DNA from: Clostridiaceae bacterium
GTDB taxonomy: Bacteria > Bacillota > Clostridia > CAYPLH01 > DUMO01
Direction: 5' to 3'
Length of the DNA: 64,000 bases
Assembly: GCA_012839865.1 (NCBI GenBank)
Contig: DUMO01000054.1
Coordinates: 1-64,000 of the forward strand
Part shown: positions 49,612 through 58,427 of the stretch, piece after piece
How positions within the stretch are numbered: the stretch's first letter is position 1
Layout of the letters: each line of letters starts with the position of its first letter
The notes under the pieces: generated by a model
Databases searched by the model: none
What the model was told of the DNA's origin: nothing
What the model saw: only the letters and a program-made list of their open reading frames with translations
Translations under genes and position numbers: made by a program

Positions 49612-51111
49612 TTATCGTTTTCTTAACACAGCGCGAAGTACAAGCTTTCCTTTCTTTATAAAGTAACGCAGCCTGGAGAAGAGCTGGAGTCCTTTATATA
49701 CTCTTGCAGCCAGTTTTCTCATCAATCCGGAGTCGCTTCTTTTGGCCAAAAATTTGGATATTGGCCTTGCAAATCTGAACTGTGTCATGTAGATGAGGGC
49801 ATACCAGAAATTGGACACTGGACTGTCGTTTTTATAGCCCCAATACATGTTGTATTGCTCCTGAATTGAACTGTACATGATTTTGTCAAGCTCTTCCCGT
49901 GATAAAACATTCATGTCAATAGCCATATCAACTATATCGGTACCCGGAAGAAAATTCAGGCCGTGAAGCTGAAGCTCGTATGGCAGCTTGAGTTGCAGGC
50001 ACAACTCATAGGTTTGCTTTATATCCTCATCCGTTTCAAAGGGATGCTGGAGCATAAAATCGTAAATAACCTGAGGGACCTTGCATTTTTTCAGGACTTC
50101 GCCTGCTTTGATTATTTCATCCTGTGTTTCCAGGCGGTGAAAAATTACCTTCCGGACTTTTGGTGAACCGCTTTGTATACCCATTACAACCTTGTACAAA
50201 CCTGCGGAGACCAATTTGCTTATAAGCTCCTCGTTTACTTTCAGGGGATGTCCCCAGATTTCAAAGGGAAGCCCGATTTCTTTTTTGTACCTGCTGCTGA
50301 ATTCGTCAATCCATTCCGGGTCGTCGGAAAAAATTTCATCCCAGAAATGAATTACCTTAAGGCCTTTTATCCTGGCTTTTGCATCCTTAAGTTCAGCCAT
50401 TACACTGTTAACGCTTCTGAAACGGACATAATTTCCTTTTCCTTTGTATACACGTTTCAAATTAACCGATGAACAGTATGAGCAAACAAAGGGGCAACCT
50501 CTTGAAGCGGTCAGCTCATAGCTTACCGATTTTAACTGAGGGTCACCCGTAGCTATTGTATTGTTATGAATGAAATATTTATTGTTTCCTCCGACTTCAG
50601 GATAACCGTACTTGTCGATATTTTCGCATAATGGACGGATATCGTTTATATATGTTGCATCGTTTTTTTTGTAAGCAAGATTAAGAATGGAGTTAACTGC
50701 TTTATTGGAGTAAACTGCATGGACAAGTTCGCAAATTGCCTGCTCGCCTTCTCCACGGATTACATAATCGGCGTATTTCAGGCATTTTTCAGGGAAAAGA
50801 GTCGGGAATACACCACCCCACACAAGAGGTATTTTGAAATTTGAAGTTATCATGTCATTGACCTTGTACACTGTCTCCAGGTAAAGAGAGGCCATGACAC
50901 TCAATCCGATGATTCCCGGATTTACCTTCAATATAAGCTCCTTAAGCAGATCAAGTTCTTTTTCTGTGGCAGGTTGGGGCTTTACGCTGTTGAAATCCTT
51001 GAAAAACACCAATACAGTGTCATATCCCGCAGCTGTAAGCGCTTGCTCCAAATATCTGACACCCAGAGCCTTTTTATTATAAAAACCAATCAATAGCACC
51101 GGCCTATCCAT
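49612..51111 (-). CDS. cobalamin-binding radical SAM protein, copy 2
   Basis: 499 aa. N-terminal B12-binding-type Rossmann domain (residues about 1-150), lacking the DxHxxG histidine as in other BchE-like proteins, then a radical SAM domain with CPFVCSYC (CxxxCxxC). Paralogue of the gene at 51308-52792 over its full length. Substrate unknown; related proteins methylate or make C-C bonds in lipids, pigments or natural products. Last of a three-gene minus-strand group. Confidence 0.82.
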   Translation of the reverse strand: MDRPVLLIGFYNKKALGVRYLEQALTAAGYDTVLVFFKDFNSVKPQPATEKELDLLKELILKVNPGIIGLSVMASLYLETVYKVNDMITSNFKIPLVWGGVFPTLFPEKCLKYADYVIRGEGEQAICELVHAVYSNKAVNSILNLAYKKNDATYINDIRPLCENIDKYGYPEVGGNNKYFIHNNTIATGDPQLKSVSYELTASRGCPFVCSYCSSVNLKRVYKGKGNYVRFRSVNSVMAELKDAKARIKGLKVIHFWDEIFSDDPEWIDEFSSRYKKEIGLPFEIWGHPLKVNEELISKLVSAGLYKVVMGIQSGSPKVRKVIFHRLETQDEIIKAGEVLKKCKVPQVIYDFMLQHPFETDEDIKQTYELCLQLKLPYELQLHGLNFLPGTDIVDMAIDMNVLSREELDKIMYSSIQEQYNMYWGYKNDSPVSNFWYALIYMTQFRFARPISKFLAKRSDSGLMRKLAARVYKGLQLFSRLRYFIKKGKLVLRAVLRKR

Positions 51112-51196
51112 TAATTTGTTCCCCCACCCTTTTTCATATCAAAAAAACTCAAACCAACACTACTTTATTTTACTATACTGTTTGGTTATTTACAAC

Positions 51197-51300
51197 TGTC
51201 CCGGAGACCAGGCGGTTCCTGTGGTTCCAGGCCGGGTTGAGGTTTTTCTTGATTCCCCATACATGACCGGGGCGGCTGAACCGGGACGAGGGGGACGGTT
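51197..51300. repeat. GC-rich inverted-repeat patch between radical SAM genes
   Basis: GTCCCGG (around 51198) and CCGGGAC (around 51280) are inverted, and GGTTCCTGTGGTTCCAG and GGGGACGGTTCC lie inside or beside it. Similar phrases (CGGTTCCCGTGGTTG, GGCGGTTCTTGTGGTC) occur near 55185 and 28555. It may be a fragment of a REP-like palindromic repeat. Confidence 0.4.
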
Positions 51301-51307
51301 CCATTCT

Positions 51308-52792
51308 CTATCTCATAGCTCGCAGCAGAAGGCGCCCTTTTTTGTAATAATAGCGCAGGCGGCTTAAAGGCCTGGCCATTTTGCAGAGTTCAATTGCAGG
51401 CCGCATCATTGAATATTTGTCTGCCATGAACCTGGCAACAGGCCTCATGGGGGCAAACTGGGATAAATAAATCAGTGAGTACCAGAAGTTGGATTGTGGT
51501 GTTTTATTGTTAAGGTGCCAATATTTTCTATACTGTTCGTTCATTGGACTGTACATTATTTTCTCCAGTTCTGCTCTGCTCATGATTCCTCTTTCCACAA
51601 CCATTTCCGATATGCCGGTGCCCGGAAAATAATTGAGGGCATGGAGCTGAAGCTCAAAAGGAGGCTCAAGTTTGCTGCACAGAATGTAACTCTCCCTTAT
51701 GTCTTGCTCTGTTTCAAAGGGGTGCTGCAATATAAAATCATATATAACCTGTGGTACTTTGCACTCATTTAAGATTTTACTTGCGTTGAATATGTCTTCC
51801 TGGGACTCGGGCCTGTGGAATATTTCCTTTCTTATTCTTTCTGAACCGCTTTGTATTCCCATTACCGCTTTAAACAGTCCTGCCTTTACCAATTTTTGAA
51901 TTAAATCTTTGCGGACAGTGAGGGGGTGCACCCAGATTTCAAAAGGAAGATCAATTTCCTTTGCATACCTTGATACGAATTCATCCACCCATTCGTCATC
52001 GGAGGGGAATATCTCATCCCAGAAATGAATGAATTTCAAATTGGGAAGCTTGACCCTGGCTTCATTAAGTTCATCCATAATACTTTCGACACTCCGAAAG
52101 CGTATGTAACGCCCCTTGCCTTTGTATATTCTTTTTAAATTGACTGATGAACAGAAGGAACAGGAAAAGGGGCACCCCCTTGATGCGGCAAGCTCATAAC
52201 TCAAAGCTTCCATTTGAGGGTCTTTTCGGATTATCCGGTTGTTGTCAATAAAGAATTTGTTTGCCCCGCCAATTTCAGGGTAGCCATACCTGTCCAGATT
52301 TTGCTCCAGCAAGCGCACATCATTCATTTTGAATGTTCCATTATGCATATATGCAAGGTTTGATATGTTTTCACAGGTTTTTTTATTTATAATTGAATCA
52401 GCCAGTTCGGCCAAGGCTTCCTCGCCTTCTCCGATGATTACAAAGTCAGCATGTTCCAGGCATTTTTCAGGGAACAGGGAGGGATACACACCACCCCAGA
52501 CTATAGGTATTGAAAAGCTGCTTCGCAATGTATTATTAACATGATAAACTGTCTCAAGATATAATGAAGTCATGACGCTAAGACCTATCAGAGAAGGTTT
52601 AAGGGCAGAGACTGTCCGGGTGAGCAGTTCAAGTTCGGCTTTTGTGGTGCTTCCCGGTTTGATGCTGTTGAAACCTTTGAAAAATATTATATTAACCGGT
52701 ATACCATGGGCTGTCAGGGACTTTTCAAGGTACCTTACCCCCAGCGCTTTTTGATTATGAAAGGCTATTAGCAAAACCGAATTGTTATCCAT
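51308..52792 (-). CDS. cobalamin-binding radical SAM protein, copy 1
   Basis: 494 aa with B12-type N-terminal domain and a radical SAM domain with CPFSCSFC. The frame opens at 52927, but GGAGG before the ATG at 52792 (MDNNSVLLIAF) fixes the start. Sequence similarity to the gene downstream is high throughout (LGVRYLE, WGGVYP versus WGGVFP, IHFWDEIF, YDF[IM]LQHPFET, ELQLHxLNxxPGT), so the pair arose by tandem duplication. Preceded by a methyltransferase gene. Confidence 0.84.
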   Translation of the reverse strand: MDNNSVLLIAFHNQKALGVRYLEKSLTAHGIPVNIIFFKGFNSIKPGSTTKAELELLTRTVSALKPSLIGLSVMTSLYLETVYHVNNTLRSSFSIPIVWGGVYPSLFPEKCLEHADFVIIGEGEEALAELADSIINKKTCENISNLAYMHNGTFKMNDVRLLEQNLDRYGYPEIGGANKFFIDNNRIIRKDPQMEALSYELAASRGCPFSCSFCSSVNLKRIYKGKGRYIRFRSVESIMDELNEARVKLPNLKFIHFWDEIFPSDDEWVDEFVSRYAKEIDLPFEIWVHPLTVRKDLIQKLVKAGLFKAVMGIQSGSERIRKEIFHRPESQEDIFNASKILNECKVPQVIYDFILQHPFETEQDIRESYILCSKLEPPFELQLHALNYFPGTGISEMVVERGIMSRAELEKIMYSPMNEQYRKYWHLNNKTPQSNFWYSLIYLSQFAPMRPVARFMADKYSMMRPAIELCKMARPLSRLRYYYKKGRLLLRAMR

Positions 52793-52951
52793 TAAAAATC
52801 CTCCGGTTAGAGAATAACGATTACACACCAAAAAAAATGCCTGTATGCTTAACCTGCCTGATATGCCAATAAAATATTCCTTGTCGCAGGAAAAGTCCTC
52901 AGCAATAAATTTTTGGTTGCTAATCATTTATTATCTAACTAAAGGACAAAA

Positions 52952-53803
52952 TTATTCAGGTTTTTTGAGAACACAGACCACCATTTTTACAAATCCCTCT
53001 TTGATTACAGGTATGCGGGAGGTAAAGGCCAAAAACTTTCTTAAGGGCACCTCCCGGTAGTAATCAATGCTGAAATCCGCATTTTCAAGAATCTTTTGAA
53101 ACCGTGCAATGGTCATTTTATTTATATATGAAATGTACTCGCAGCCGCTTCCGTCTTTTGAAATGCGAAGTTTAATCCGCTCCTGCTCGTCAGGAAGTTT
53201 GCTGACCAGTTCCTTGTATACTTCAATGAGGGTATTCTCGTTAAAGAAAAAATGAACCCAGGGAATGCCTATTGCATCACTAAGATGGGCACCGTAAGGA
53301 TGATAATAGGGAGGAAAATTTATGTAAAGCCTTCCGCCGGGCTTTAGCACCCTGCGGCATTCTTTTAATATTTCTTCCGGGTTTGCCACATGTTCCATGG
53401 AATCATTCATTATTATCGTATCAAAAAAGTTGTCGTCAAAAGACAAGTGTGTTGCATCTCCTACAACAAACCGGAACCTGTCTGAAAGCCCCTTTTCCTG
53501 TGCCAGTTGGTTGGCTTCGATTTCATACTGGGGAAGTATGTCTATGCCGTACACCATGGATGCGCCAAGGGAAGTGTAGTATATGGTCTTTCCTCCTGCC
53601 CCGCAGCCAATATCCAGTACGGTTTTGTCTTTGAAAATATCATCGGCGCTGTAACGCTCAAGATAATATTTGATGGTTTCCCTGCCCTTTTGATACTGCC
53701 AGCGGTTCAATGACATAATGCCTTTGTTTTGAAGGTTCAAAGGATGCTCCGGCAGAGGGAAAACTTTGTTCAGTAATTTGCAGGCTGTTTTTTTAAAGCT
53801 CAT
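52952..53803 (-). CDS. class I SAM-dependent methyltransferase of radical SAM cluster
   Basis: 283 aa with motif I VLDIGCGAGGKTIYY (near residue 61), an acidic GIDILP, and MNDSMEHVANPEEIL, a ubiE-like Methyltransf_11 pattern. The ATG follows AAAGGA. It is first in the minus-strand group with the two radical SAM genes. Together they suggest a small methylating biosynthetic unit of unknown product. Confidence 0.82.
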   Translation of the reverse strand: MSFKKTACKLLNKVFPLPEHPLNLQNKGIMSLNRWQYQKGRETIKYYLERYSADDIFKDKTVLDIGCGAGGKTIYYTSLGASMVYGIDILPQYEIEANQLAQEKGLSDRFRFVVGDATHLSFDDNFFDTIIMNDSMEHVANPEEILKECRRVLKPGGRLYINFPPYYHPYGAHLSDAIGIPWVHFFFNENTLIEVYKELVSKLPDEQERIKLRISKDGSGCEYISYINKMTIARFQKILENADFSIDYYREVPLRKFLAFTSRIPVIKEGFVKMVVCVLKKPE

Positions 53804-54289
53804 ATTTTTTCCTTTTCTCTGAAGTTTATTTTTATATCAAAATTTACTCAGTATATTATATTTCCCCAAAAAATCAATGCTTACATATTGCCTTATTTAA
53901 TAATAAAGCATCATCAAAGCAATTACAAGAGCCTAGCCTAAAGCCCGTGACTTTAGCCACCGTAAATGAAATGTATGCAGAACAATAACAAAATAAAGCC
54001 ATTTGTTATTGTTCTGCATACATTTCATTCAAGTCAGGCTATACCTAAAAAGTAATGATTGATTGTGCAGAGGTGGCAGCAGGGATTCGGTCCTATTGAC
54101 CTGTTTGTTAGTGTTATTATAGAATGATGGTACGAACAGTAAACTTGACAGCATGCTGTAATTTGACAGATTATGCTTCATTCTCCATAAACGCCGTACT
54201 TCATTTGAGATTAAACCATCTTTTGAAAGCATATTATATTTGGAGCAGAATATATTCAAAGCAGCCAAAGTTGGCAGGGAGTGATTAAT
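53804..54289. other. intergenic region with palindrome between methyltransferase and AraC genes
   Basis: No supported gene. A minus-strand open frame at 54029-54268 has no ribosome site and begins in the hairpin region, so I rejected it. The 28-bp palindrome at 53966-54030 is the main structure. Confidence 0.55.
53966..54030. repeat. perfect palindrome, repeat family copy 2
   Basis: 28-bp arms at 53966-53993 and 54003-54030 are exact inverted complements around a 9-base centre (ataaagcca). The arm sequence AATGAAATGTATGCAG matches the ends of the element at 21933-22135. Confidence 0.8.
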
Positions 54290-55201
54290 ATGGGCGAGGT
54301 CTCTTTACCGCGAGCATGGGAAAGCTTGCTTGCTTCAATGAGCTTTTTACCGGTTATAGTAAAAAGCATAGAGAATTATTTCAACTCTGACTGGTCTATG
54401 AACCCAAATCGTCATGACCACTTTGAAATGGTTTATGTAAAAAAAGGTGACGGGATTTTTGAAGTGGCAGGTCAGCCTGTGCCTATTGGACCTAATGATA
54501 TATTAATCATCAAACCTAATCAGGTGCATAAATTGATCGTGAAATCCAAAACAGGATGCCAGTTTATTGTGTTAAGTTTCAGGTTTGCCGGCAAACTCAG
54601 CAAAGAATACTCGGAAATTTCTCTTGAGGACTTTTTGAATTTTGTTCGGGAAAATGAATCCGGAGCTTTTATTGTGCTGAAAGTAAATCAAAAAAACGAA
54701 ATTATTGATCTTTTGAACCGGATCATAAAGGAAAAAGAAAATGACGACATTGGGAGCGAATTCTTAAGGTATCTTTTAATTCTGGAGCTGTTTGTACTCC
54801 TTTCAAGGGCTCTTAAAATGGAGTGGGAAAACAGCATCAAAGGAAAAAGCCTTAAACTGAAAGAGCTCATAAGAATTGCGGTGGAGTTTATTTATAACAA
54901 TTTTGAGCGGGAAATTTCGGTTAAGGACATGGCGAACTACGTCTTTTTGAGCACAGGGTACTTTACACGGGCATTTAAGGAAGAGACGGGCATTACGCCT
55001 GTAAGCTACCTTCGGAAGGTAAGAATCGAAAGGGCGAAAGATCTGTTGGCGGAAACAGACATGAAAGTTGCCGAAATAGCACAAAGTGTGGGCTTTTCAA
55101 ACCAGCAGAGATTCAATGAAACATTCAGGCAACAAGTTAAAATGACTCCCCTGGAATACAGAAAAAGAAACCGTACCCCGAAAAACGGTTCCCGTGGTTG
55201 A
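54290..55201 (+). CDS. AraC-family transcriptional regulator
   Basis: 303 aa. N-terminal cupin-like sensor (about 20-110, with RHDHFEMVYVKKG and PIGPNDILIIKPNQVH), C-terminal AraC double helix-turn-helix (about 215-300, VSYLRKVRIERAKDLL and the GFSNQQRFNETFRQ core). Start at the ATG 54290 with GGGAGTG before it. It lies upstream of leuC, but there is no sign it controls that operon. Confidence 0.87.
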   Translation: MGEVSLPRAWESLLASMSFLPVIVKSIENYFNSDWSMNPNRHDHFEMVYVKKGDGIFEVAGQPVPIGPNDILIIKPNQVHKLIVKSKTGCQFIVLSFRFAGKLSKEYSEISLEDFLNFVRENESGAFIVLKVNQKNEIIDLLNRIIKEKENDDIGSEFLRYLLILELFVLLSRALKMEWENSIKGKSLKLKELIRIAVEFIYNNFEREISVKDMANYVFLSTGYFTRAFKEETGITPVSYLRKVRIERAKDLLAETDMKVAEIAQSVGFSNQQRFNETFRQQVKMTPLEYRKRNRTPKNGSRG

Positions 55202-55509: not shown

Positions 55510-56772
55510 ATGGGAATGACAATGACCCAAAAAATATTGGCGGAGCATGCCGGGCTTTCCAGTGTGAGAGCCGGACAGTTGGTAAAGGCAAAGCTTGATA
55601 TGGTGCTGGGAAATGATATTACATCACCCGTGGCAATAAAGGAGTTTATGAAGATTGGCGCAGAGTGTGTTTTTGATACTGAAAAGATAGCAATTGTGCC
55701 TGACCATTTTACTCCAAACAAGGATATCAAGTCCGCTGAGCAGGCAAAATTTATCAGGGAATTTGCATATAAGATGGGTATAAAGAATTATTTTGAAATA
55801 GGCGAGATGGGTGTGGAGCATGCACTTTTGCCCGAAAAGGGGCTTGTTGTATGCGGCGACGTAGTAATCGGAGCAGATTCCCATACCTGCACATATGGAG
55901 CTCTTGGAGCTTTCTCAACCGGTGTGGGAAGCACGGATATGGCAGCAGCCATGGCAACCGGTGAGGCCTGGTTTAAAATACCTGAAGCAATCCGGTTTGT
56001 TTTAAAAGGCAAGCCGGGAAAGTGGGTAAGCGGAAAAGACATAATCCTTCACATTATCGGCATGATAGGTGTTGACGGTGCCCTGTACAAATCAATGGAA
56101 TTTACAGGTGAAGGACTGTCCCATTTATCCATGGACGACAGGTTTGCCATGGCAAACATGGCTATTGAAGCGGGCGGCAAAAATGGCATATTTGATGTCG
56201 ATGAAAAGACAATTGAGTATGTGAAGGAACACTCACGGAAAGCCTATAAGATTTTTACAGCTGATAATGATGCTGAATACGTTGAAGAATATGAAATTGA
56301 CCTTTCGGGGTTAAGACCGACTGTTGCCTTCCCGCACCTGCCGGAAAACACAAGGTCAATAGACGAGGTGGGCGATATAAGGATAGACCAGGTTGTTATA
56401 GGTTCATGCACAAACGGGAGAATAGAGGATCTCAGGATGGCTGCTTTGGTATTAAAGGGCAGAAAGGTGCATAAGGGCGTAAGATGCATTATAATTCCGG
56501 CAACCCAGAAAATATGGAGACAGGCAATGAACGAAGGATTGTTTGAAATATTTATCGATGCGGGAGCAGCGGTAAGTACTCCTACCTGCGGTCCATGCCT
56601 TGGTGGGCATATGGGCATACTGGCGAAAGGCGAAAGGGCTGTTGCCACCACCAACAGAAATTTTGTAGGAAGAATGGGCCATCCCGAGAGTGAAGTGTAT
56701 CTTGCAAGTCCTGCTGTTGCAGCAGCTTCTGCAGTAGCCGGGAAAATTGCCTCTCCTGAAGACCTTAAGTAG
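55510..56772 (+). CDS. leuC: 3-isopropylmalate dehydratase large subunit
   Basis: 420 aa aconitase-family subunit that isomerises 2- and 3-isopropylmalate in leucine synthesis; the size and sequence are of the archaeal/clostridial LeuC type. [4Fe-4S] cysteines lie in GSCTNGR (near 302) and [10 protein letters not shown] (near 362-365); [13 protein letters not shown] is also typical. AAGGGG precedes the ATG by eight bases. Homoaconitase or aconitase activity in a 2-oxoglutarate route is an alternative. Confidence 0.86.
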
Positions 56773-56860
56773 AGAAAATTAATCAACACCCAAGCCTTGC
56801 TTAAAAGATGATTAATACAGCAGGTTTACAAAAAGGTAGAGTGTTAAGGAGTGAAGAACT

Positions 56861-57358
56861 ATGAAAGTAGAAGGAAAAGTCATTAAGTACGGGGACAATG
56901 TCGACACAGATGTCATAATACCTGCGCGGTATCTTAATACATCAGACCCGTCGGAATTGGCAAGGCATTGTATGGAGGACCTTGACAAGGATTTTTCATT
57001 AAAAGCTGAAACATGTAAGATTTTAGTCGCCGGGAAAAATTTTGGTTGCGGGTCTTCAAGGGAGCATGCTCCAATTGCTATAAAGGAGTCCGGTATTGAG
57101 TGCATTATTGCAAAGACCTTCGCCAGAATTTTTTTCAGAAATGCAATAAACATTGGCCTGCCTATTATTGAATGTCCCGAGGCGGCAACTGATATTGAAC
57201 CCTGGGATACGGTAATTGTGAATTTTGAAACCGGAACCATAACCAACGTTACAAAAGGCAGAAGCTATGTGGCAGAAGCGTTTCCGGACTTCATGAAAGA
57301 AATAATGGCAGCTGGCGGGCTGATTGGATATATCAGAAACATGTTTAAAAAGACATAA
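56861..57358 (+). CDS. leuD: 3-isopropylmalate dehydratase small subunit
   Basis: 165 aa partner of LeuC. Contains the substrate-loop region [14 protein letters not shown] and the swivelling [10 protein letters not shown] motif that holds the substrate carboxylate. AAGGAG is ten bases before the ATG. Organised leuC-leuD-leuB with tight spacing. Confidence 0.88.
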
Positions 57359-57371
57359 GGAGTTGAGTCGG

Positions 57372-58427
57372 ATGAAAGTATACAAAATTGGAGTCATACC
57401 CGGGGATGGTACCGGACCTGAGGTTGTGGAGGAAAGCGTAAAGGTTTTGAAGGCTGCGAGCAAAAAATTCGGGTTTTCAATTGATTTTGAATATTTTGAT
57501 TTCGGAGGAGAAAGGTATAAAAAGACCGGTATTATTCTTACAGATGAAGAAATAGAAAAGGTTGCCACAAAACAGGCAGTACTCCTGGGTGCCATCGGGC
57601 ATCCGGATGTAAAGCCGGGAATACTGGAAAGAGGAATTCTCCTGAAATTAAGATTTACTCTTGACCAATATATAAACTTAAGACCTGTCAAGTTGTATGA
57701 GGGTGTTGATACCCCCCTTAAGGATAAAGGGCCGGATGATATTAATTTTGTAGTTGTAAGGGAAAACACGGAAGGCCTTTATACAGGCGCAGGTGGTTTT
57801 TTGAGAAAGGGTACGCCTTACGAAGTTGCAATACAGGAATCCATCAGTACACGTCAGGGAGTTGAACGCTGTATCAGGTTTGCCTTTGAACTTGCCCGTA
57901 AAAGAAACAAAAAGAAAAAGCTGACCTTGTGCGGTAAAACCAATGTATTAACCTACGCCTTTGACCTTTGGGAAAGAACATTTTATGAAGTGGCAAAGGA
58001 ATATCCGGATATACAGACCGACTACTGCCATGTGGATGCTACATGCATGTGGATGGTGAAAAATCCTGAATTTTTTGATGTGATTGTTGCCGATAATCTA
58101 TTCGGCGATATAATCACTGATTTAGGTGCCGCAATACAGGGAGGAATGGGCATTGCAGCCGGTGGCAACATTAATCCCGAAGGTGTTTCGATGTTTGAAC
58201 CTATTGGCGGATCAGCTCCGAAGTATACCGGAAAGCGTATGATAAATCCGCTGGCGGCGATTGCTGCAGGTCAGATGATGATGGAACAGCTTGGCGAGGA
58301 TAAGGCAGCAGATGCAATTGAAAAGGCTGTCATGAAAGCTGTTAAGAATGATATAAAAAGCATGGCGGCAGGCAAGATGGGTTTTGCAACTGACGAGGTT
58401 GGGGACTTGATAGTAAGCTATTTATGA
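57372..58427 (+). CDS. leuB: 3-isopropylmalate dehydrogenase family
   Basis: 351 aa NAD-dependent beta-decarboxylating dehydrogenase. The GAIGHPDVKPGILERG..LLKLRFTLDQYINLRP region is like the actinobacterial-type LeuB; this segment is quoted in parts only. Conserved VADNLFGDIITDLGA metal site and GSAPKYTGK. The frame opens at 57324, but AAGGAG before the ATG at 57372 fixes the start. Isocitrate or homoisocitrate dehydrogenase are possible because a citrate-synthase-type gene is in the window. Confidence 0.8.
   Translation: MKVYKIGVIPGDGTGPEVVEESVKVLKAASKKFGFSIDFEYFDFGGERYKKTGIILTDEEIEKVATKQAVLLGAIGHPDVKPGILERGILLKLRFTLDQYINLRPVKLYEGVDTPLKDKGPDDINFVVVRENTEGLYTGAGGFLRKGTPYEVAIQESISTRQGVERCIRFAFELARKRNKKKKLTLCGKTNVLTYAFDLWERTFYEVAKEYPDIQTDYCHVDATCMWMVKNPEFFDVIVADNLFGDIITDLGAAIQGGMGIAAGGNINPEGVSMFEPIGGSAPKYTGKRMINPLAAIAAGQMMMEQLGEDKAADAIEKAVMKAVKNDIKSMAAGKMGFATDEVGDLIVSYL

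Follow-up and report, generated by a model that had tools for sequence, protein, structure and literature searches.

We asked what is made by two adjacent genes for cobalamin-binding radical S-adenosylmethionine (SAM) proteins, here called rSAM A and rSAM B, that lie beside a class I methyltransferase gene in a 64,000-nucleotide stretch of a Clostridiaceae bacterium genome (contig DUMO01000054.1, positions 1 to 64,000; this whole stretch is the window). The original prediction had read the three genes as a compact unit carrying out paired radical methylations or C–C bond formations on a lipid, pigment or small molecule. Sequence and predicted fold supported the assignment of A and B to the cobalamin-dependent type of radical SAM (rSAM) enzyme, and the methyltransferase is most likely an accidental neighbour rather than a partner.

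Class membership of rSAM A and rSAM B

Open reading frames (ORFs) and Pfam domains bore out the presence of two full-length paralogues and an adjacent class I methyltransferase on one strand. Both A and B matched the B12-binding and Radical_SAM families above the curated cut-offs and shared 58% identity over 494 residues, far above chance, and the methyltransferase matched Methyltransf_11 at 1e-25. In class 1 cobalamin-dependent rSAM enzymes, the cobalamin domain is N-terminal and has a five-stranded Rossmann fold, with a β-hairpin and a barrel after it (PMC13331322). An AlphaFold2 model of rSAM A, with a mean predicted local distance difference test score of 91, contained a five-stranded Rossmann domain (strands at residues 5-10, 32-37, 67-71, 96-99 and 116-118), a β-hairpin (145-155) and a radical SAM barrel, with a helical part at the C terminus. 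The A/B family thus had the Rossmann cobalamin domain and hairpin of this class together with a CxxxCxxC motif in a triosephosphate isomerase-type barrel, and both Pfam domains were present in all 22 aligned members. The closest solved structures in a Foldseek search were TsrM (1e-19), MgmA (9e-19), OxsB, AprD4, TokK and CysS. By these comparisons, A and B would be predicted to bind cobalamin.

Alignment of 44 family sequences identified 52 invariant residues, all of which were kept in rSAM B, indicating no sign of degeneracy in this copy. The three cysteines of the CxxxCxxC motif (C206, C210 and C213 of rSAM A) are expected to bind a [4Fe-4S] cluster. Profile alignments matched Met73 of rSAM A to OxsB Asn186 and TsrM Arg69, which face the cobalt, so that a conserved residue following strand 3 is predicted to lie under the cobalt as in other members of the class; this methionine was invariant in 44 of 44 rows and its residue type differed from those in published structures. 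A methionine beneath the cobalt is not shown by the structures in the review (PMC13331322) or the MgmA paper. In TokK, an enzyme presumed to transfer methyl in radical form, the lower position is occupied by the hydrophobic Trp76; more generally, a hydrophobic residue beneath the cobalt has been linked with radical methyl transfer (PMC13331322).

No named NCBIfam model was reached at its cut-off by A or B. All of the matches fell far below, and function is, therefore, not transferable from the named families. A and B belong to an unnamed family within a known enzyme kind; the family is now delimited by its invariant residues, by the absence of a named model above cut-off and by a fold predicted with high confidence.

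Genomic context and distribution of the family

The neighbourhoods of other rSAM loci varied between lineages and consisted mostly of housekeeping genes, with no partner common across lineages. A conserved neighbour was considered as a clue to the substrate, but synteny was confined to the level of lineages: a Tissierellales trio, an arrangement of ATP synthase, rSAM, DUF1779/YwmB-like and murA genes in one family (f135), accDA-pfkA-pyk-rSAM in one genus (g312), and a dus gene near the rSAM gene in the window, in genome G260 and in two Syntrophomonadaceae contigs. Genes for a precursor peptide, a carrier protein or other biosynthetic functions were not detected next to the rSAM gene, very short precursor ORFs not having been systematically searched. 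The claim that there was no known precursor gene stood to the same extent, as no precursor or natural-product gene was apparent near A and B. Riboswitch control of the family received no support from Rfam: 16 short rSAM loci were without a match, and the matches in 12 longer loci were to tRNAs only. A link with sporulation was also discarded, since Spo0A was present in 16/17 carriers versus 15/19 controls (p = 0.34). In two related bins (L017 and L027), a gene for a secreted-looking protein of 286 to 290 amino acids (aa) without a Pfam match was located directly 3′ of the rSAM gene, either starting 9 bp past it or overlapping it by 4 bp; this protein is a candidate lineage-specific partner.

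A broad scan of one genome per species (84,980 species) detected 28 loci at 46 to 65% identity, all of them in bins of Bacillota or Clostridia; in other phyla there were three distant relatives, at 26 to 31% identity. Directed searches, with the window's own genome counted, found the family in 7/391 genomes of the class and 11/398 of the phylum; hence, some 2 to 3% of sampled Bacillota carry it. Matches to plasmid-borne proteins were distant only (28% identity or less among the matches listed), and plasmid-borne relatives were set aside. Carriers usually had one copy, and two Oscillospiraceae assemblies had two copies at separate loci.

Phylogenetic analysis grouped A with one Clostridia contig (L007; support, 97/94), and the grouping of B with a second such contig was weak (L009; 90/50). 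A tree constrained to unite A and B was marginally rejected by the approximately unbiased test with 42 rows (p = 0.045) and not rejected with 34 rows (p = 0.17). As the nearest relatives of A and B differ, a recent tandem duplication was not supported, and the two are therefore old co-resident copies, for which an early duplication and separate acquisition are indistinguishable. The idea of paired radical methylation or C–C bond formation was supported for the chemistry, which would be that of the class assigned from sequence and predicted fold, but not for an obligatory pair, since most carriers have a single copy and A and B have different closest relatives. In a Pseudomonadota and a Thermodesulfobacteriota bin, genes for two different B12-rSAM proteins, distant relatives of the family, lay next to each other and overlapped (L035, 7965-10872; L036, 523-3587); pairing may be real in those distant families, though it is not the rule in the A/B family.

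Proposed function

Cobalamin-dependent rSAM enzymes typically carry out radical methylation or C–C bond formation. We consider there to be an even chance that A and B are stand-alone radical C-methylases (or C–C bond formers) that work without a gene cluster of their own on a common constituent of the cell, perhaps a lipid. By analogy, methylation is suggested in preference to the formation of a ring or a C–C bond. The absence of a fixed partner, the single-copy norm and a basic C-terminal helical tail made such a constituent, with a membrane or envelope lipid as the most plausible candidate, a likelier target than a natural product specific to one gene cluster. The tail of rSAM A had a net charge of +17; among all members measured, the segment following a conserved (T/S)Q(F/Y) motif was basic (net +3 to +24), while the core was mostly neutral or acidic. 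Anionic membranes or RNA would be fitting partners for a tail of this kind.

By analogy with the class, cob(I)alamin would take a methyl group from SAM, and the [4Fe-4S] cluster on C206/C210/C213 would cleave a second SAM to yield a 5′-deoxyadenosyl radical. This radical would abstract hydrogen from an unactivated substrate carbon, and the resulting substrate radical would take methyl from methylcobalamin held above the invariant hydrophobic Met73. The two copies probably work independently of each other.

The lipid is the least secure step of this proposal. The nearest named models include the lipid-related TIGR04072 and HpnJ, and of the lipid, pigment or small molecule originally put forward, a lipid was compatible with the evidence but stays a candidate only. 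Several observations weigh against stand-alone methylation of a lipid: no methylase function is known for TIGR04072 and HpnJ, the closest of the named families related to lipids (PMC13142503); the amphipathicity of the tail was no higher than that of shuffles in most members; CobS was absent from the window's genome; and, in a small, unmatched sample, any difference in CobS was towards a lower frequency in carriers (5/17) than in controls (13/19; p = 0.04). The absence of CobS suggested that the organism depends on salvaged corrinoid. The single cobalamin riboswitch of this genome (contig C64, 22507-22697) precedes genes reading as a BtuFCD-type ATP-binding cassette transporter (L118, 1780-5201), and several other B12-binding proteins are encoded; hence, salvaged corrinoid is probably available to the host of A and B.

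A live alternative, although we regard it as unlikely, is that the family modifies a macromolecule, C-methylating a residue of a conserved protein or an RNA base; MgmA, for comparison, methylates a glutamine in methyl-coenzyme M reductase. MgmA was among both the closest folds and the sequence matches, a stand-alone gene without partners is as expected for such an enzyme, and the basic tail could bind RNA. The patchy distribution of the family is, however, unusual for a conserved target, and the score on the MgmA family model was low (see below).

Next in order of probability, and also unlikely, is a reaction other than methylation, such as formation of a ring or a C–C cross-link, dehydration or rearrangement, as with OxsB, BchE, HpnJ, the proposed ladderane enzymes and AprD4. 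Of the PDB entries, AprD4 matched the barrel best in sequence (8e-12 in one sequence search and 1.6e-10 in another, profile-based search), and the nearest NCBIfam models, TIGR04072 and HpnJ, stand for non-methylating enzymes (PMC13142503). Against this, every match was far below its family cut-off, precluding transfer of function, and the hydrophobic residue beneath the cobalt is of the kind associated with radical methyl transfer.

A more specific extension of the lipid proposal is rather improbable: that the family is the missing stand-alone radical methylase or C–C coupling enzyme of Bacillota membrane lipids, with the window's two copies acting on different positions and a methionine beneath the cobalt. 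Long alkyl chains could, for example, be methylated at mid-chain or cross-linked. Neither radical SAM nor B12 enzymes appear in the main text of a 2026 paper on membrane-spanning lipids of Bacillota. Carriers among culturable species (Syntrophomonas zehnderi, Thermohalobacter berrensis, Sporosalibacterium faouarense and Sporanaerobium hydrogeniformans) make the substrate question directly testable.

The adjacent methyltransferase

Genome-neighbourhood comparison, one of the checks that had been proposed for this family, went against the three-gene unit. None of the 42 other rSAM loci contained a relative of the methyltransferase, and none of the 20 methyltransferase genomic regions fetched contained an rSAM gene of the A/B family; an operon with the methyltransferase was accordingly rejected. 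Close relatives of the methyltransferase (53 to 62% identity) were single copy and present in 44/391 genomes of the class. In genome G260, the methyltransferase gene lies beside leuCDB, as in the window, while the rSAM gene is on a different contig, where dus and an amidase-like gene are its neighbours. Read most simply, the window would contain two separate neighbourhoods that adjoin, namely dus-amidase-rSAM and methyltransferase-leu. As it forms a separate family with a separate genomic context, the methyltransferase was judged to be a neighbour of the rSAM pair rather than to belong with it, and the three genes appear to lie together in this genome by chance.

Nor did the description as compact hold: ~160 bp separated the methyltransferase gene from B and 196 bp separated B from A, with a weak promoter-like site and an inverted repeat in the second gap, and the arrangement did not recur in any other genome examined. 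A single biosynthetic unit of the methyltransferase and both rSAM enzymes, producing a methylated lipid, pigment or small molecule, is thus very improbable in spite of adjacency on the same strand and of co-occurrence in three of the seven genomes of the class that carry the rSAM family (p = 0.03, or 0.13 when the window's genome is left out), given these gaps, the lack of shared loci and the separation of the genes in G260, each with neighbours also seen in the window. The methyltransferase is a misleading clue and is not usable for guessing the rSAM product.

In one bacterial family (f22; L073, L074, L075 and L080), the methyltransferase gene was fixed between a WecG/TagA glycosyltransferase gene and a split transketolase in a run that also held DUF5693 and polysaccharide pyruvyl transferase genes, a context raising a possible cell-wall polysaccharide link for the methyltransferase family. 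Three homologues of the methyltransferase seemed to have an in-frame TAG, which was in fact their true stop codon, and a search for a genuine PylS found none.

Organization of the locus

The positions of the features are given in Table 1. The ATG assigned as the start of rSAM B is preceded by a GGAGG Shine-Dalgarno sequence, and the longest ORF of this gene extends to 52927. One copy of the inverted repeat was found within the window, with none expected by chance. Upstream of, and divergent from, the three genes are an AraC-type regulator gene (54281-55201) and leuCDB-like genes (55510-58427); downstream and convergent are a helicase-like gene and an RNase-H-domain gene. The dus gene near the rSAM genes of the window is accompanied by an amidase-like gene. 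Upstream of the methyltransferase gene is a near-perfect hairpin with arms of ~30 bp (53962-54032). This region had 88 BLAST matches at many sites in the genome, indicating that it is a dispersed repeat resembling miniature inverted-repeat transposable elements or repetitive extragenic palindromic sequences; a sub-threshold Rfam match to 'mir-2985' at this hairpin was presumably spurious.

Table 1. Features of the rSAM locus (positions in the window) and of the rSAM A protein
Feature	Position	Strand	Details
rSAM A	49612..51111	-	499 aa; Pfam matches, AlphaFold2 model
CxxxCxxC of rSAM A (C206, C210, C213)	50473..50496	-	Invariant in 44/44 family rows
Met73 codon of rSAM A	50893..50895	-	Predicted place of the residue beneath the cobalt; profile alignments and literature positions
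Inverted repeat GGAACCGTCCCC CTC GTCCCGGTTC	51278..51302	-	In the B-A gap
rSAM B	51308..52792	-	494 aa from ATG at 52792
CxxxCxxC of rSAM B (C207, C211, C214)	52151..52174	-	Family alignment
Class I SAM-dependent methyltransferase	52952..53803	-	283 aa; Pfam Methyltransf_11
B12-binding domain of rSAM A	aa 15-129
Radical SAM barrel of rSAM A	aa 203-371
Basic C-terminal helices of rSAM A	aa 431-498

Comparison with known systems

The best NCBIfam match of rSAM A was TIGR04072 (rSAM_ladder_B12, lipid biosynthesis B12-binding/radical SAM protein; 1e-30), on which A and B scored 107 and 97 bits relative to a cut-off of 360 bits; a fatty-acid or ladderane gene cluster was not found near the rSAM genes in the neighbourhoods examined. 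For rSAM B, the best match was TIGR04013 (B12_SAM_MJ_1487), with 97 bits for B, 91 bits for A and a cut-off of 251. HpnJ of hopanoid biosynthesis and the anaerobic cyclase BchE combine B12-binding and radical SAM domains as A and B do, but the scores of 70 and 58 bits missed the cut-offs of 578 and 481 bits, and no hopanoid or chlorophyll genes were seen in the neighbourhood. Scores on the HpnJ, BchE, MgmA and AprD4 models were all at or below 15% of the curated cut-offs.

AprD4, a radical SAM 1,2-diol dehydratase (PDB 6fd2), is cobalamin independent and belongs to an aminoglycoside cluster. Its fold is similar to that of rSAM A, but A and B reached only 47 of the 500 bits required by the AprD4 model. 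MgmA (methyl-coenzyme M reductase glutamine C-methylase; TIGR04014, PDB 9ccb) resembled rSAM A in fold, with a template modelling (TM) score of 0.73 by target length, while differing from A and B in a score of 49 of 360 bits and in its target, a methanogen protein that is absent here. MgmA is a B12-dependent rSAM methylase without a hydrophobic residue at the lower axial place (MgmA paper). The closest fold was that of TsrM, a tryptophan 2-C-methyltransferase (PDB 6wte/6wtf). This enzyme is located in a thiopeptide cluster and uses no 5′-deoxyadenosyl radical. It shares only 17% identity with rSAM A and has Arg69 under the cobalt where A has Met73, but its domain order is identical and the two folds superimposed with a TM score of 0.62.

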